64,000 nt of DNA from Achromobacter aloeverae (lineage in GTDB: Bacteria; Pseudomonadota; Gammaproteobacteria; Burkholderiales; Burkholderiaceae_B): NCBI RefSeq assembly GCF_004121055.1, contig NZ_PYAL01000008.1:372001-436000 (forward strand). The letters run 5' to 3'. Made by a program: the position numbers and the translations under genes. The notes under the pieces are model-generated. The model searched no databases, was not told the DNA's origin, and was given only the letters and a program-made list of their open reading frames with translations. Below are positions 59,338-63,958 of the stretch, in pieces. The first letter of the stretch is position 1; each line of letters starts with the position of its first letter.

Positions 59338-61395
59338 CTAGTTCTTTTTGAGCAGGGCCTTGAGCATGTCGAGGCGTTCCTTGGGGCTCATGGCGCGGGT
59401 GGCTTCGTCTTCGGGGAAGCGGGCGTCGCCCAGGCCCATTTCTTCGATGAAACGCGAGGGCTCGCGTACGAGATCTTCGCGGGCGCGGCGGCGCTTCTTG
59501 CACCAGCTGAGGTTGAGAGTACGCTGGGCGCGGGTGATGCCCACATACATGAGGCGCCGCTCTTCCTCGATGCGGCTCGCCAGCGATTCGGCCGCCTTGG
59601 CGGGGTCGCCTTCCTCCTCGTCCTTGCCCATGTGCGGCAGCAGCCCCTCCTCCACCCCCACCATGTAGACGTGCGGATACTCCAGGCCCTTGGACGCATG
59701 CAGCGTGGTCATCTTGACCGCATCGGGCGTTTCTTCCTCGCCGCGCTCCAGCATGGTGACCAGGGCGACATGCTGCACCAGTTCGAACAGCGTCAGGCCG
59801 TCTTCCTCGGACTTGCGCTTGAGCCAGGACGTCAACTCCAGGACGTTCTGCCAGCGGCTCTGCGCCGGCTTTTCTTCCATGGTGTCGTAGAGATGGCGCT
59901 CGTACTGGATGGCTGCCAGCAAATCGTCCAGGATGACGCCGGCCGGTTCCGCCGACGTCGGCTTCTCGCCGGCCTTGCCGCGACCAGCGCGCCACTGGAT
60001 GCGCTGGATGAACTCCGCGAAGACGCGCAGTTGCTCCAACTGGCGCGCCTGCAGACGGGTTTCCAGCCCGTGCTCGAAAACCGCCGCGAACAGGGACAAC
60101 TGCCGGTCCGCCGCGTACTGGCCGAGCGTCTGCAAGGTGGCTTGGCCGATGCCGCGCTTGGGCGTCGTCGCCGCGCGGATGAAGGCAGGATCGTCCTCGT
60201 CGTTGGCGATCAGCCGCAGATAGGCCAGCACATCGCGGATTTCCGCCTTGTCGAAGAAGCTCTGCCCACCGGCGATCGTGTACGGAATCTTCAGGTTGCG
60301 CAGCGCCTGCTCAAGTATGCGCGACTGGTGATTGCTGCGATACAGGATGGCGTAGTCTTTCCACTGCGCCTGCCGTTCGAAGCGCGAAGCGGAGATCTTC
60401 ATGGCCGTCGCTTCGGCTTCGGCCTCTTCGCTATCCATGGGCGTCACGACGATGGGCTCGCCATGCGCCAGGTCCGACCACAGCTTCTTTTCGAACAGCT
60501 TGGGGTTCCGCTCGATCACCTGGTTGGCCGCGGCCAGGATGCGCTGCACCGACCGGTAGTTCTGCTCCAGCTTGATCAGCTTGAGACTGGGATAGTCCTT
60601 GGGCAGCCTGGCCAGGTTCTCGATGGTGGCGCCGCGCCAGGCATAGATGGCCTGGTCGTCGTCGCCGACCGCGGTGAACATGGCGCGGTCACCCGTCAGC
60701 AGCTGCACCAGCCGGTACTGGCAGACGTTGGTGTCCTGGTATTCGTCCACCAGCAGATAGCGCACGCGATTCTGCCAGCGCGTGCGCACCTCCTCGTTGG
60801 TTTCCAGCAAGCGCGCCGGCACCAGGATCAGGTCGTCGAAGTCGACCGCCTGGTAGGCCGCCAGCGTGGCGGCATAACTGCGATAGACCCGCGCGGCTTC
60901 GAACTCCGAAGGCGTAACGGCGGCCTTCTCCGCGCCATCCGGGTCCAGCAAGGCGTTCTTCCACAGCGAGATGGTCTGCTGCACGGCGCGCAGGCGACCC
61001 TTGTCGGTAGTCGCCAGCAACTCCTGCACGATGCCCATGGCGTCGTCGGCATCCAGGATGGAGAACTGCGGCTTGAGGCCCGCGTGCCGCGCCTCCTCGC
61101 GCAACAGGCGCACGCCCAGCGCATGGAAGGTGCTGATGGTCAGGCCTTTGGACAGCTTGCGCTCGACCAGCGTCTTGACGCGCTCGTCCATCTCGCGCGC
61201 GGCCTTGTTGGTGAAGGTCAGGGCCACGATGTTGCGCCCCTGGTAGCCGCAATCCTGAAGCAGGTAGGCGATCTTCTGCGTGATGACGCGCGTCTTGCCG
61301 CTGCCCGCGCCAGCCAGCACCAGGCACGGACCGCCCAAGTAGAGGACGGCCTCGCGTTGCGGCGGATTCAAACCGGCGGGAACGGAGTTGGACAT
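59338..61395 (-). CDS. rep: ATP-dependent DNA helicase of the Rep/UvrD family
   Basis: This 685-residue superfamily 1A helicase starts MSNSVPAGLNPPQREAV. It has the motifs in order: Q-tip LNPPQREAV, Walker A AGAGSGKT (about residues 29-36), motif Ia FTNKAAREM, motif II DEYQDTN, motif III VGDDDQAIYAWRG, motif IV QNYRS and motif V/VI TLHASKGLEY and ITRAQRTL. The length and the LNPPQREAV start favour Rep over UvrD (about 720). It unwinds DNA 3'-5' at stalled replication forks. It lies seven bases after priA, so the two are co-transcribed and likely act together in fork restart. The 125 codons upstream in frame are not coding. Confidence 0.92.
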   Translation of the reverse strand: MSNSVPAGLNPPQREAVLYLGGPCLVLAGAGSGKTRVITQKIAYLLQDCGYQGRNIVALTFTNKAAREMDERVKTLVERKLSKGLTISTFHALGVRLLREEARHAGLKPQFSILDADDAMGIVQELLATTDKGRLRAVQQTISLWKNALLDPDGAEKAAVTPSEFEAARVYRSYAATLAAYQAVDFDDLILVPARLLETNEEVRTRWQNRVRYLLVDEYQDTNVCQYRLVQLLTGDRAMFTAVGDDDQAIYAWRGATIENLARLPKDYPSLKLIKLEQNYRSVQRILAAANQVIERNPKLFEKKLWSDLAHGEPIVVTPMDSEEAEAEATAMKISASRFERQAQWKDYAILYRSNHQSRILEQALRNLKIPYTIAGGQSFFDKAEIRDVLAYLRLIANDEDDPAFIRAATTPKRGIGQATLQTLGQYAADRQLSLFAAVFEHGLETRLQARQLEQLRVFAEFIQRIQWRAGRGKAGEKPTSAEPAGVILDDLLAAIQYERHLYDTMEEKPAQSRWQNVLELTSWLKRKSEEDGLTLFELVQHVALVTMLERGEEETPDAVKMTTLHASKGLEYPHVYMVGVEEGLLPHMGKDEEEGDPAKAAESLASRIEEERRLMYVGITRAQRTLNLSWCKKRRRAREDLVREPSRFIEEMGLGDARFPEDEATRAMSPKERLDMLKALLKKN

Positions 61396-61402
61396 GACGG
61401 GA

Positions 61403-63646
61403 TCAGATTTCCAGGGGGTCGACTTCCAGCTGCCAGCGCACGCGGCTGGCGTTGGCCAGTTGCGGCAGCAGCGCGGACCAGGTGGACAGGAAGGCTTGCA
61501 GGGCAGGCCGGTGTCCGCTTTCCACCAGCAGCTGGGCGCGCTCGATGTTGGCCACCCGCACCACGCGCAGCGGTACGGGATCGTAGCGCGTAATCGTTGA
61601 AACCAGCGTGCCGAAGGCGCCGGTGCTCTCGGGCAGCGCCCGGGCTTCCTGCAGGAACGCCAGCGCCTGCGCCAGCTCGCGCGCTTCGGCGGTGAGCAGC
61701 GCCTGGTAGGCATACGGCGGCAGGCCGGTGCTTTCGCGCTCGCGCAAGGCGTGCCGGGCGAAACCGGCATAGTCGTGGCGCAACAGCGCCTGGTAGACGG
61801 GCTGCTCGGGGTAGCCGGTCTGGATCAGGACTTCGCCGCCCTCGGCATGGCGGCCGGCGCGGCCGGCCACTTGCATCAGCTGCGCGAACAGGCGCTCCGG
61901 GGCGCGGAAGTCGTGGGCGAACAGCATGGAGTCGGCGTTGAGCACCCCCACCAGCCCCAGGCGCGAGAAGTCATGCCCCTTGGCCACCATCTGGGTGCCC
62001 ACCAGGATGTCCACCTCGCCGGCATGGACGCTGGCGAACAAGGCCTGCGCGCTGCCCTTGCGGCGCGTGCTGTCGGCATCGATGCGCAGGATGCGGGCGC
62101 CGGGAAACAGTTCGCCCAGGTGTTCCTCCACGCGTTGCGTGCCACGCCCCATGGGTTGCAGGTCCTGGTCGCCGCACTCCGGGCAGGCACGCGGCACGCG
62201 GGCCTGGAAACCGCAGTGATGGCAGGCCAGCACGTGACCGCCCGCGCCGGGGCCGCGGTGCAGCACCGTGTAGGCGGAACAGCGCGGGCAATGGCTGACC
62301 CAGGCGCAGGACGCGCAGTGCAGCACCGGCGCATAGCCGCGTCGGTTGAGGAATACCAGCGACTGCTCGCCGCGCTCCAGGCGCTTGCCGATGGCGTCGG
62401 TCAACTGCGGCGACAGTCCCTGCTTCATCGCCAGGCGGCGCGTGTCGACCAGGCGCACGGCCGGCAGGCTGCTGGACTTGGCGCGGCGGGCCAGCGTCAG
62501 GCGCAGATAGCGCCCGCGCTCGGCGTGCAGCCAGCTTTCCAGCGAAGGCGTGGCGGACCCCAGCAGCACCGGGATATCCAGGTCGTGGGCTCGCCAGATC
62601 GCGAGATCGCGGGCGGAATAGCGCAGTCCATCCTGTTGCTTGTAGGAGGCGTCGTGTTCTTCGTCGACGATGATCAGGCCCAGGTCCGGCAGCGCGGCGA
62701 AGACCGACATGCGCGTGCCCAGCAGCACCCGCGCTTCGCCCCGCTGCGCGCGCACCCACGCCTGCAGGCGCTCGCCGTCGGCCAGGCCGCTGTGCAGCAC
62801 CGCCAGCGCGCCGGGGCCGGCGACGGCATCCAGACGCGCGCGCAGGACGGCCTCCAGCTGCGGGGTCAGGTTGATCTCGGGCACCATCAGCAGCACCTGG
62901 CGGCCAGCCGCCAGGACGCGCTCGGCCGCATGCAGATAGACCTCCGTCTTGCCGCTGCCGGTCACGCCATGCAGCAGGACGGGCTTGAAGCCCCGTACGG
63001 CGGCGATCGCGTCGACGGCCGCCTGCTGTTCGTCATTGAGTACGGGCGGCGAGGCAGCCACGGGGGCGCCGGCGAGCGGCACCGCATCGCCTGGCGTGGC
63101 GCAAGTCTGTGCATCGTTATCCACAGGGACGGCCGCCTCCGGCGTCGCCACCAGGGCGGCCTTGGCCGCCCGCTTCCCCTTCTTCGCCGGCTTGGGCATG
63201 GCGCGCAAGTCCATGCGTGCGACCGGCCCCGCCGCCGAACGCTGGCCTTCGTAGGCGGACACTTTGCGCAAGGGCGGGGGCAGCGCCGGCAATATGACTT
63301 CCCCCAGCGGCCGCTGGTAATACTCGGCGGCAAAGACGGCCAGGCGCAGCCAATCCGCCCCGAACGGCGGCAAATCGTCCAGGACCCGCTCCACCGCCTT
63401 GATTTGCGCGGGATCGATGGCGGGTTCGGCGGGATTATCCACAACCACGCCTACCAGGCGGCGACGGCCGAACGGCACGATGACCCGCAGCCCAGGCGCC
63501 AGGGGCGTGCTGGCGCGGTAGTCGAAGGGCCCCGCCAGCGGAACGTCCAGGGCCACCCTCACCCAGGCATGCGCGGATACATCCGCTGGCGCATGTTCGC
63601 CGGGCACGGAGGCGAGCAGGTCAGCGGATGTATCGGCGGGCGGCAT
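61403..63646 (-). CDS. priA: Primosomal protein N' (PriA helicase)
   Basis: PriA recognises abandoned replication forks and loads the replisome. The 747-residue protein has the N-terminal 3'-DNA-binding domain (AWVRVALDVPLAGPFDYR, short as PLAGPFDYRA) and the winged helix, the helicase motor with Walker A GVTGSGKTEVY, motif II VDEEHDASYKQ and motif III GSATPSLES, and a zinc-binding insert with Cys pairs (CASCAWVSHCPRC and CHHCGF... CPECGDQ). Motifs V and VI are in LVGTQMVAKGHDF and QVAGRAGR. The Gly/Ala-rich insert near residue 160-200 is longer than in E. coli. Three DnaA boxes lie in or just upstream of the gene. Confidence 0.96.
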   Translation of the reverse strand: MPPADTSADLLASVPGEHAPADVSAHAWVRVALDVPLAGPFDYRASTPLAPGLRVIVPFGRRRLVGVVVDNPAEPAIDPAQIKAVERVLDDLPPFGADWLRLAVFAAEYYQRPLGEVILPALPPPLRKVSAYEGQRSAAGPVARMDLRAMPKPAKKGKRAAKAALVATPEAAVPVDNDAQTCATPGDAVPLAGAPVAASPPVLNDEQQAAVDAIAAVRGFKPVLLHGVTGSGKTEVYLHAAERVLAAGRQVLLMVPEINLTPQLEAVLRARLDAVAGPGALAVLHSGLADGERLQAWVRAQRGEARVLLGTRMSVFAALPDLGLIIVDEEHDASYKQQDGLRYSARDLAIWRAHDLDIPVLLGSATPSLESWLHAERGRYLRLTLARRAKSSSLPAVRLVDTRRLAMKQGLSPQLTDAIGKRLERGEQSLVFLNRRGYAPVLHCASCAWVSHCPRCSAYTVLHRGPGAGGHVLACHHCGFQARVPRACPECGDQDLQPMGRGTQRVEEHLGELFPGARILRIDADSTRRKGSAQALFASVHAGEVDILVGTQMVAKGHDFSRLGLVGVLNADSMLFAHDFRAPERLFAQLMQVAGRAGRHAEGGEVLIQTGYPEQPVYQALLRHDYAGFARHALRERESTGLPPYAYQALLTAEARELAQALAFLQEARALPESTGAFGTLVSTITRYDPVPLRVVRVANIERAQLLVESGHRPALQAFLSTWSALLPQLANASRVRWQLEVDPLEI
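63117..63125 (+). promoter_or_regulatory. Exact DnaA box (TTATCCACA), inside priA
   Basis: This is one of three exact TTATCCACA sequences in 667 bases. It falls within the priA coding region, in the long Ala/Gly-rich insert where sequence constraint from the protein is weakest. Confidence 0.6.
63435..63443 (+). promoter_or_regulatory. Exact DnaA box (TTATCCACA), inside priA N-terminus
   Basis: This is the second exact box, 318 bases from the first and in the same orientation, encoding Val-Val-Asp-Asn on the opposite strand. It is part of the same cluster as the box at 63775. Confidence 0.6.
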
Positions 63647-63774
63647 GGGGAAGGCGCAATTGGCTAAAAGGATGAGGTCGGAAGGTCGTCCGACTTAAAG
63701 TGAATTCTCGGATTGCCCGCTAAGGCACTGACAAGCCGTGACTTGAAATGTGGCTGAAACGTGAAATGACAGCC

Positions 63775-63783
63775 TGTGGATAA
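63775..63783 (-). promoter_or_regulatory. Exact DnaA box (TGTGGATAA), upstream of priA
   Basis: This is the third exact box, inverted relative to the other two and 58 bases before the AT-rich tract. A one-mismatch copy TGTGCACAA lies on the other side of the tract at 63950. Confidence 0.65.
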
Positions 63784-63958
63784 CTTTGGGGAAAATCCTC
63801 GGAACTTCATGGCCTCATGCGCTTAGCACAAGGCAAGAATTCTTGCCGGATATTTTCCAGATTTCGATATTCTATATAAATCAATAACTTATTAGATCTT
63901 TCCAGATTGAAACTAAGAAGATCCTCGGTCCCTGTCCTCTCTACGTTGCTGTGCACAA
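63775..63958. other. Candidate replication origin (oriC-like DnaA box plus AT-rich tract)
   Basis: The priA upstream region has no gene. Bases 63841-63900 contain 16 G/C of 60 (27 percent) in a window that is otherwise about two-thirds GC, with CGATATTCTATATAAATC and TTATTAGATCTTTCC at the core and TTTCCAGATT twice. An exact DnaA box flanks it on the left, a near box on the right, and two more boxes lie inside priA. This is the composition of a DNA-unwinding element next to DnaA sites. Function is inferred. Confidence 0.45.

Follow-up and report, generated by a model that had tools for sequence, protein, structure and literature searches.

Several copies of the DnaA box TTATCCACA lie at the priA locus of Achromobacter aloeverae, which raises the question of whether they mark the chromosome origin (oriC), as a first-pass annotation made from the letters alone had proposed, or a secondary DnaA-controlled site, which it had kept as a fallback. 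The window analysed here is a 64,000-nucleotide stretch of contig NZ_PYAL01000008.1 (assembly GCF_004121055.1, positions 372,001 to 436,000; G000:C12:372001-436000 under our own handles) from a genome of 6.49 Mb in 13 contigs, and its features are numbered from its first letter. How particular DNA loci convert DnaA between its active and inactive states has been worked out in Escherichia coli, where datA acts through integration host factor (IHF)-dependent hydrolysis of DnaA-bound ATP (datA-dependent DnaA-ATP hydrolysis, DDAH) and the DnaA-reactivating sequences (DARS) act through release of ADP from DnaA. The intergenic boxes upstream of priA proved to be parts of a conserved element, with DnaA boxes on both sides of a predicted IHF site, which supports and extends the fallback reading. 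This element is probably a non-coding variant of the datA/DARS class, controlling DnaA by means of an IHF-bent complex, and we favour a datA-like role for it.

A conserved DnaA box and IHF element upstream of priA

The element (63775..63958, minus strand) lies in the 372-bp gap between hemE and priA and reads A-67 bp-IHF-96 bp-III-12 bp-II, with distances counted from 5' end to 5' end on the sense (minus) strand and with all boxes head-to-tail. It is the genome's single match to a strict pattern of box, IHF site at 9/9 and box with allowed gaps. DnaA box A (TTGTGCACA, 63950..63958, minus) comes first, and its consensus over the 75 priA-linked elements described below is TTATGCACA. The predicted IHF site TAAGTTATTGATT (63879..63891, minus) agrees at 9/9 with YAANNNNTTGATW, and every one of the six genus genomes has a match of 8 or 9 of 9 at this 67-bp distance from box A. 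The degenerate box III (TTTTCCCCA, 63787..63795, minus) and box II (TTATCCACA, 63775..63783, minus) hold the positions of the DARS boxes of these names; box II is kept in 6/6 genus genomes, and box III shares 6-8 of 9 letters with TTATCCACA in 75/75 priA-linked elements. Two blocks are invariant across the six genomes in an otherwise variable gap, namely TTTTCCCCAAAGTTATCCACAG (22 bp), of which box III is part, and TTGTGCACAGCA (12 bp) at box A. A third, inverted box (box I) at +14, as known from DARS, is absent, with 2/9 letters in the window and 2-5 of 9 across the six genomes.

We confirmed the three exact TTATCCACA boxes of the first-pass annotation at 63117 (plus), 63435 (plus) and 63775 (minus). 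Its placing of them upstream of priA holds for 63775, the sole intergenic one, but not for 63117 and 63435, which lie within the gene. Similarly, the box at 63950 has one mismatch, as claimed, when compared to TTWTNCACA but two when compared to TTATCCACA; it reads TTGTGCACA on the minus strand and thus falls outside the list of one-mismatch TTATCCACA boxes. The AT-rich tract (63841-63900) does contain 16 G/C in 60 bases, with TTATTAGATCTTTCC at 63889 and TTTCCAGATT at 63854 and 63899. The annotation had taken this tract for an unwinding element and did not name the IHF site that lies within it.

The boxes are also more than a chance cluster. Base composition predicts 0.11 exact boxes per window, in agreement with the earlier rough estimate, and three within 667 bp are expected about 7e-5 times if the 24 genome boxes outside the cluster on contig C9 (see below) are placed at random. 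The whole genome holds 30 exact TTATCCACA boxes compared to 12 of the reversed pattern, and a chance origin of the boxes and their layout was ruled out by these genome counts, the shuffles described below and the random-placement expectation. The comparison across relatives that had been suggested as a check separates the boxes into two groups: all six genus genomes retain the intergenic boxes at 63775 and 63950, whereas the two in-gene boxes are variable (both in 3/6, one in 1/6, neither in 2/6). The in-gene box at 63435..63443 (plus, opposite to the element) occurs in 4/6 genomes and that at 63117..63125 (plus) in 3/6. Both fall on Val-Asp-Asn codons of priA, and the 63117 box sits in a variable stretch of the gene, yet is retained in 3/6 genomes, as if the DNA and not the protein were selected.

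Conservation at priA loci and elsewhere

A total of 110 priA loci were collected, 30 from a search of relatives (the window's own and 29 others; 31 genomes searched) and 80 named ones among the matches listed. L111 and L115 were dropped for too short an upstream region, which left 108 loci, each with an upstream region of 300 bases or more. A box pair is found in 84 of them, and 75 have the full layout, defined as the pair plus an IHF match of at least 8 at 107-112 bp from box II; the full layout appeared 0 times in 20 rounds of dinucleotide shuffles and 0 times on the opposite strand of the 108 loci. Because the 107-112 bp range belonged to the definition, we repeated the test with no position limit, and the highest-scoring IHF match in the whole interval between the boxes still lay 107-112 bp from box II in 79/84 loci, and in 38/38 where that match was 9/9. 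Of the 24 loci without a pair, titles or groups mark ten as gammaproteobacterial (including Pseudomonas, Pseudoalteromonas and Halopseudomonas); the other 14 are eight named ones, mostly beta (e.g. Gallionella, Sideroxydans, Azonexus, Rubrivivax), and six others. The full layout accompanies priA in 72/90 loci with a hemE hit.

Box A keeps a stepped distance from the IHF site. Over the 75 loci, the A-to-IHF spacing falls into classes of 56-57 bp (4 loci), 65-70 bp (51), 75-81 bp (18) and 88 bp (2), with none at 58-64, 71-74 or 82-87 bp. The classes seem to step by about one helical turn, a pattern that would follow from a need for A and II to be opposed across a bend. A Rayleigh value of 0.81 was obtained at periods of 10.5 and 11 bp, against 0.71-0.80 at the other periods tried; the largest class dominates this value, which does not test the phasing strictly. 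Tandem copies of the whole element (two to four) were also seen upstream of priA in some Burkholderiales (L055, L057, L062, L063, L074, L094; G457:C24:156315-157262). Cupriavidus is among the genera with the element, at loci L064, L071 and L075.

In genome-wide scans, the strict pattern was matched in 59/274 class-wide genomes and 80/300 Burkholderiales, while a reversed control pattern was matched in 0/274 and 0/300. These counts are underestimates, as the order-wide draw took in only G000 and G005 of the genus and two of the six congeners reach only 8/9 at the IHF site. PriA was located in 58/59 and 80/80 of the matching genomes, respectively, and a strict match lies immediately upstream of priA, oriented towards it, in 65/80 Burkholderiales and about 24/59 class-wide genomes (a count by eye, to which G112 is extra, with one gene between element and priA). 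The remaining copies adjoin many different genes, in both orientations to them. We took 49 regions of such copies and dropped three near priA, after which 42/46 passed the relaxed layout; their flanking proteins formed only small clusters of two or three in blastp, some from sister genomes. One genome, G279, carries five copies, one of them at priA. An inverted box at +14 (at least 7/9) is present in 34/42 copies elsewhere compared to 21/75 priA-linked ones, with 0.0% and 0.3% at control offsets. Off-priA copies show a further conserved block, approximately TGnnTAAaaanTngcCAATtTaA, 57-79 bp before box II, which was not seen in the priA-linked consensus; a Fis site would be our guess.

Distances to dnaA were determined for the priA-linked elements. 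In three closed congeners the element lies 6.8-8.7% of the genome from dnaA. Among 39 genomes searched, 19, including G112 with its intervening gene, had a priA-linked element in an assembly of one contig, or of two with dnaA and the element together, and 16 of these elements were 1.2-10.4% of the genome from dnaA (lengths partly rounded). In fragmented assemblies outside the 19, the priA-linked element was, for example, 511 kb (G137) and 583 kb (G195) away. The strict matches off priA in five single-contig genomes, three of which share one genus, were 37-41% from dnaA, and the four non-priA copies of G279 were 16-45% away.

Comparison with datA and proposed mechanism

According to passages of PMC5742627, datA needs boxes 7, 2 and 3 and one IHF site (IHF-binding site, IBS), with the boxes pointing one way in the order 7-2-IBS-3. 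In the E. coli sequence NC_000913.3 we read box 2-65 bp-IBS-97 bp-box 3 in the same directions; the TTGTAAACA 12 bp before box 2 that we took as box 7 is our own assignment. Similar to datA, the priA element has a single IHF site with a box on either side, all pointing the same way, box A being a predicted box with one mismatch to TTWTNCACA. The spacing of 67/96 bp agrees within 2 bp with the 65/97 bp of datA when the degenerate box III is taken as the counterpart of box 3, a match that uses the degenerate box while the perfect box II lies 12 bp further. Both are non-coding, and the priA element is near the origin in closed congeners. In datA, however, box 3 is followed at 12 bp by a one-mismatch box in inverted orientation, where a direct TTATCCACA stands here, and the neighbours differ as well, being glyVXY-queG for datA and hemE-priA here. 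A pure datA reading was revised on account of the inverted third box in most copies elsewhere and of box 7 lying on the other side.

In the mechanism that we infer for this element, IHF, both of whose subunit genes (ihfA and ihfB) are encoded in the genome, would bind the central site and bend the DNA sharply, and the bend would bring DnaA on box A beside DnaA on the III-II pair. A DnaA oligomer would form only with IHF bound and would alter the nucleotide state or the availability of DnaA. In the datA-like direction, active ATP-DnaA would be lowered after initiation, and an element near the origin, as in the closed congeners, would be duplicated soon after initiation. We favour this direction because of the missing box I, the head-to-tail boxes around the IHF site, the datA spacing and the nearness to the origin in the congeners.

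Several points weigh against this interpretation. The first gap of the strict pattern had been widened to admit datA, the layout rules were derived after inspecting the priA loci, and related loci are not independent. The full layout is missing from 33/108 priA loci and from 15/18 loci without a hemE hit. The low-affinity partner at 12 bp stands beside the distal box here, but beside box 2 (as box 7) in datA. Three of the 19 priA-linked elements are far from dnaA (22.5, 24.9 and 44.0% in G534, G504 and G523), and the nearness of the others may only reflect the position of priA itself. In other families the priA-linked copy can carry both A and an inverted box I, the latter at 7-8 of 9 in the priA-proximal copy of L031, L055-L057, L059, L062, L063, L065 and L074, so that the split into inactivating and reactivating elements is one that we only infer. 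Finally, the position at priA in 65/80 Burkholderiales also fits a role in priA expression, alone or in addition. The three elements far from dnaA and the frequent placement at priA lowered our confidence in a datA/DARS-class element and raised that in a role at priA.

Alternative explanations

The strongest alternative explanation, which is compatible with a datA/DARS-class element and to which we give roughly one chance in three, is a DnaA/IHF-regulated promoter of priA-rep that ties fork-restart capacity to initiator level. The genes of the locus, from right to left and all on the minus strand, are atp genes (named from the letters of their open reading frames, ORFs), further ORFs, hemE, whose stop is 19 bases past the right edge of the window, the 372-bp gap, priA (replication restart helicase; 61403..63646; NF004067, 2.1e-289; TIGR00595, 1.1e-164) and a rep-like helicase (59338..61398; TIGR01074, 6.3e-259, 860.8 bits, under the curated cut-off of 951.45). 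Downstream of box II, a block CTTAG...ACTTTAA (63694..63725, minus), with its CTTAG and ACTTTAA columns invariant in 6/6 genus genomes, is a possible priA promoter. The element stands directly upstream of priA and reads towards it in the Burkholderiales and class-wide strict matches counted above, and it is also kept at three of the 18 loci without a hemE hit (L102, L106, L122). However, many unrelated genes have this layout beside them, in either orientation, and the second such element of the genus sits between an exbB-like ORF and xseA.

Less likely is a DARS-like element that reactivates DnaA by ADP release through the III-II pair and IHF. We read the core of both E. coli DARS1 and DARS2 as III-12-II-14-inverted I; the III-II pair of the priA element has the same 12-bp spacing and thus makes up two thirds of this core, with III degenerate, and the inverted box at +14 is frequent in the copies elsewhere and present in 21 of the 75 priA-linked ones. 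The likeness extends to IHF in DARS2, for which IHF dependence is reported in E. coli and in which an IHF-like sequence (8/9) lies exactly 109 bp from box II; in DARS1, no IHF match of 8/9 was found in the interval scanned. Against this stands the absence of the inverted box in the window and in 6/6 genus genomes. As described in part of PMC8682772, the inverted box and box II of DARS2 give a head-to-head contact, and the absence of box I makes head-to-head ADP release unlikely here. Moreover, passages of PMC4245941 report an IHF footprint on DARS2 only at IBS1-2, which we place on the other side of the core from the IHF site of the priA element because two IHF matches lie there 3 bp apart, as in that paper. 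A straight DARS2 orthologue was weakened as a candidate by this position of the footprinted sites. When 15 E. coli proteins around datA, DARS1 and DARS2 were compared with 79 loci (L135-L213, some of them priA-linked or overlapping), only one hit was obtained, in the priA region of L212, where uvrB matched in part. A literature search showed no report of a DnaA element at hemE-priA among the matches listed, with search terms that are ambiguous (datA/'data', hemE/'heme').

A DARS-like role at priA also has to contend with separate elements in the same genome that do carry the inverted box. A search for DARS boxes II-I with one mismatch allowed found them in 6/6 genus genomes, and the reversed control in 0/6. 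The second IHF-DnaA element (C6:154376-154398; L238), between exbB/exbD-like ORFs and xseA, has a full III-II-I core and occurs in all six genomes; the exbB/exbD-like naming is a reading of the letters, as NCBIfam gave no hit at 1e-20. Its 12-bp III-II pair comprises TTATCCACA and a box III that is TTCTGCACA in four genomes and TTTTACACA in two. The inverted box I is present in 6/6 genomes, and so are an IHF match of 8-9 standing 109-110 bp before box II and, 88 bp ahead of that match, an A-like box (7-8 of 9). Compared to the priA element, it shares the 12-bp pair and the IHF distance to box II but has box I and only a 7-8 of 9 A-like box. Three further III-II-I triplets (C5:689613, C5:1368602 and C7:630801; L244, L248 and L252) occur in four of the six genus genomes, and 10/12 of their sequences have an IHF match (8-9) that precedes box II by 54-55 bp, not 109. 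The genus thus has box I in elements away from priA but not in the one at priA, in parallel to the DARS loci and datA of E. coli.

Passive titration of DnaA, with its nucleotide state unchanged, is improbable. The extra exact boxes within priA in four of the six genus genomes would add capacity, but the fixed IHF position and the near-helical spacing steps would be needless for titration.

Location of the replication origin

The box cluster and AT-rich tract of the window had led to the proposal of an origin, a reading to which we now give almost no weight. A 1.2-kb region on another contig of the genome, C9:93351-94569, holds six exact boxes and AT-rich tracts about 4 kb from mnmG-rsmG, with dnaA 65 kb from the cluster on the same contig; its tracts have 19-20 G/C per 60 and are less AT-rich than that of the window. 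The window lies on C12, and the genes beside the boxes are hemE, priA and rep, where mnmG or dnaA had been suggested as neighbours to look for. The suggested GC-skew check was run in the closed congener G002 (6.99 Mb), a relative's genome, from 20 sampled stretches and thus coarsely: the skew was minus from 2.1 to 5.25 Mb and plus at 5.6, 6.0, 6.5 and 0.35-1.75 Mb, with -0.004 at position 1, which puts the minus-to-plus switch between about 5.25 and 5.6 Mb. The orthologous cluster of G002 is separated by 0.41 Mb from priA, which lies at 4.845 Mb, and the switch is at or beyond that cluster. In this relative the switch is therefore at least 0.4 Mb from priA, the kind of distance that the first-pass annotation had itself said would speak against its origin. 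An origin in the window was ruled out by position, that is, by the C9 cluster, mnmG and dnaA on C9 and the congener skew. In G002, the C6 element described above and the box cluster are 2.53 Mb (36% of the genome) apart.

The C9 region contains two diverged copies of an origin-like unit (C9:93345-94285; L012:7346-8286), 71-74% identical and 708 bp apart, each with an AT-rich tract, a box resembling TTGTGCACA and two TTATCCACA boxes in inverted orientation at a distance of 181 bp. G002 likewise has two inverted box pairs 181 bp apart.

Implications

Passages of PMC4245941 describe the DARS2 core as conserved among gammaproteobacteria related to E. coli. In part of the review PMC5742627 this conservation is extended to E. 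coli-proximal beta- or gammaproteobacteria, and analogous box clusters are mentioned for Bacillus and Streptomyces. If the elements reported here act on DnaA, control of the initiator by IHF-bent DNA would be older and wider than this reported conservation, and their natural variation (presence or absence of box I, one-turn spacing shifts, tandem copies) would offer a test of what determines inactivation or reactivation. A link to priA, if real, would in addition connect initiation with fork restart. A bolder and rather doubtful interpretation is that of an old, undescribed family of helically phased A-IHF-III-II-I elements across Beta- and Gammaproteobacteria, sometimes several per genome, of which datA (the A side and IHF) and DARS2 (the III-II-I side) would be derived halves; the priA copy of this genus, with box I lost, would then be an independently evolved datA. 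If this were true, its retention beside priA would tie the restart of forks to the state of the initiator.

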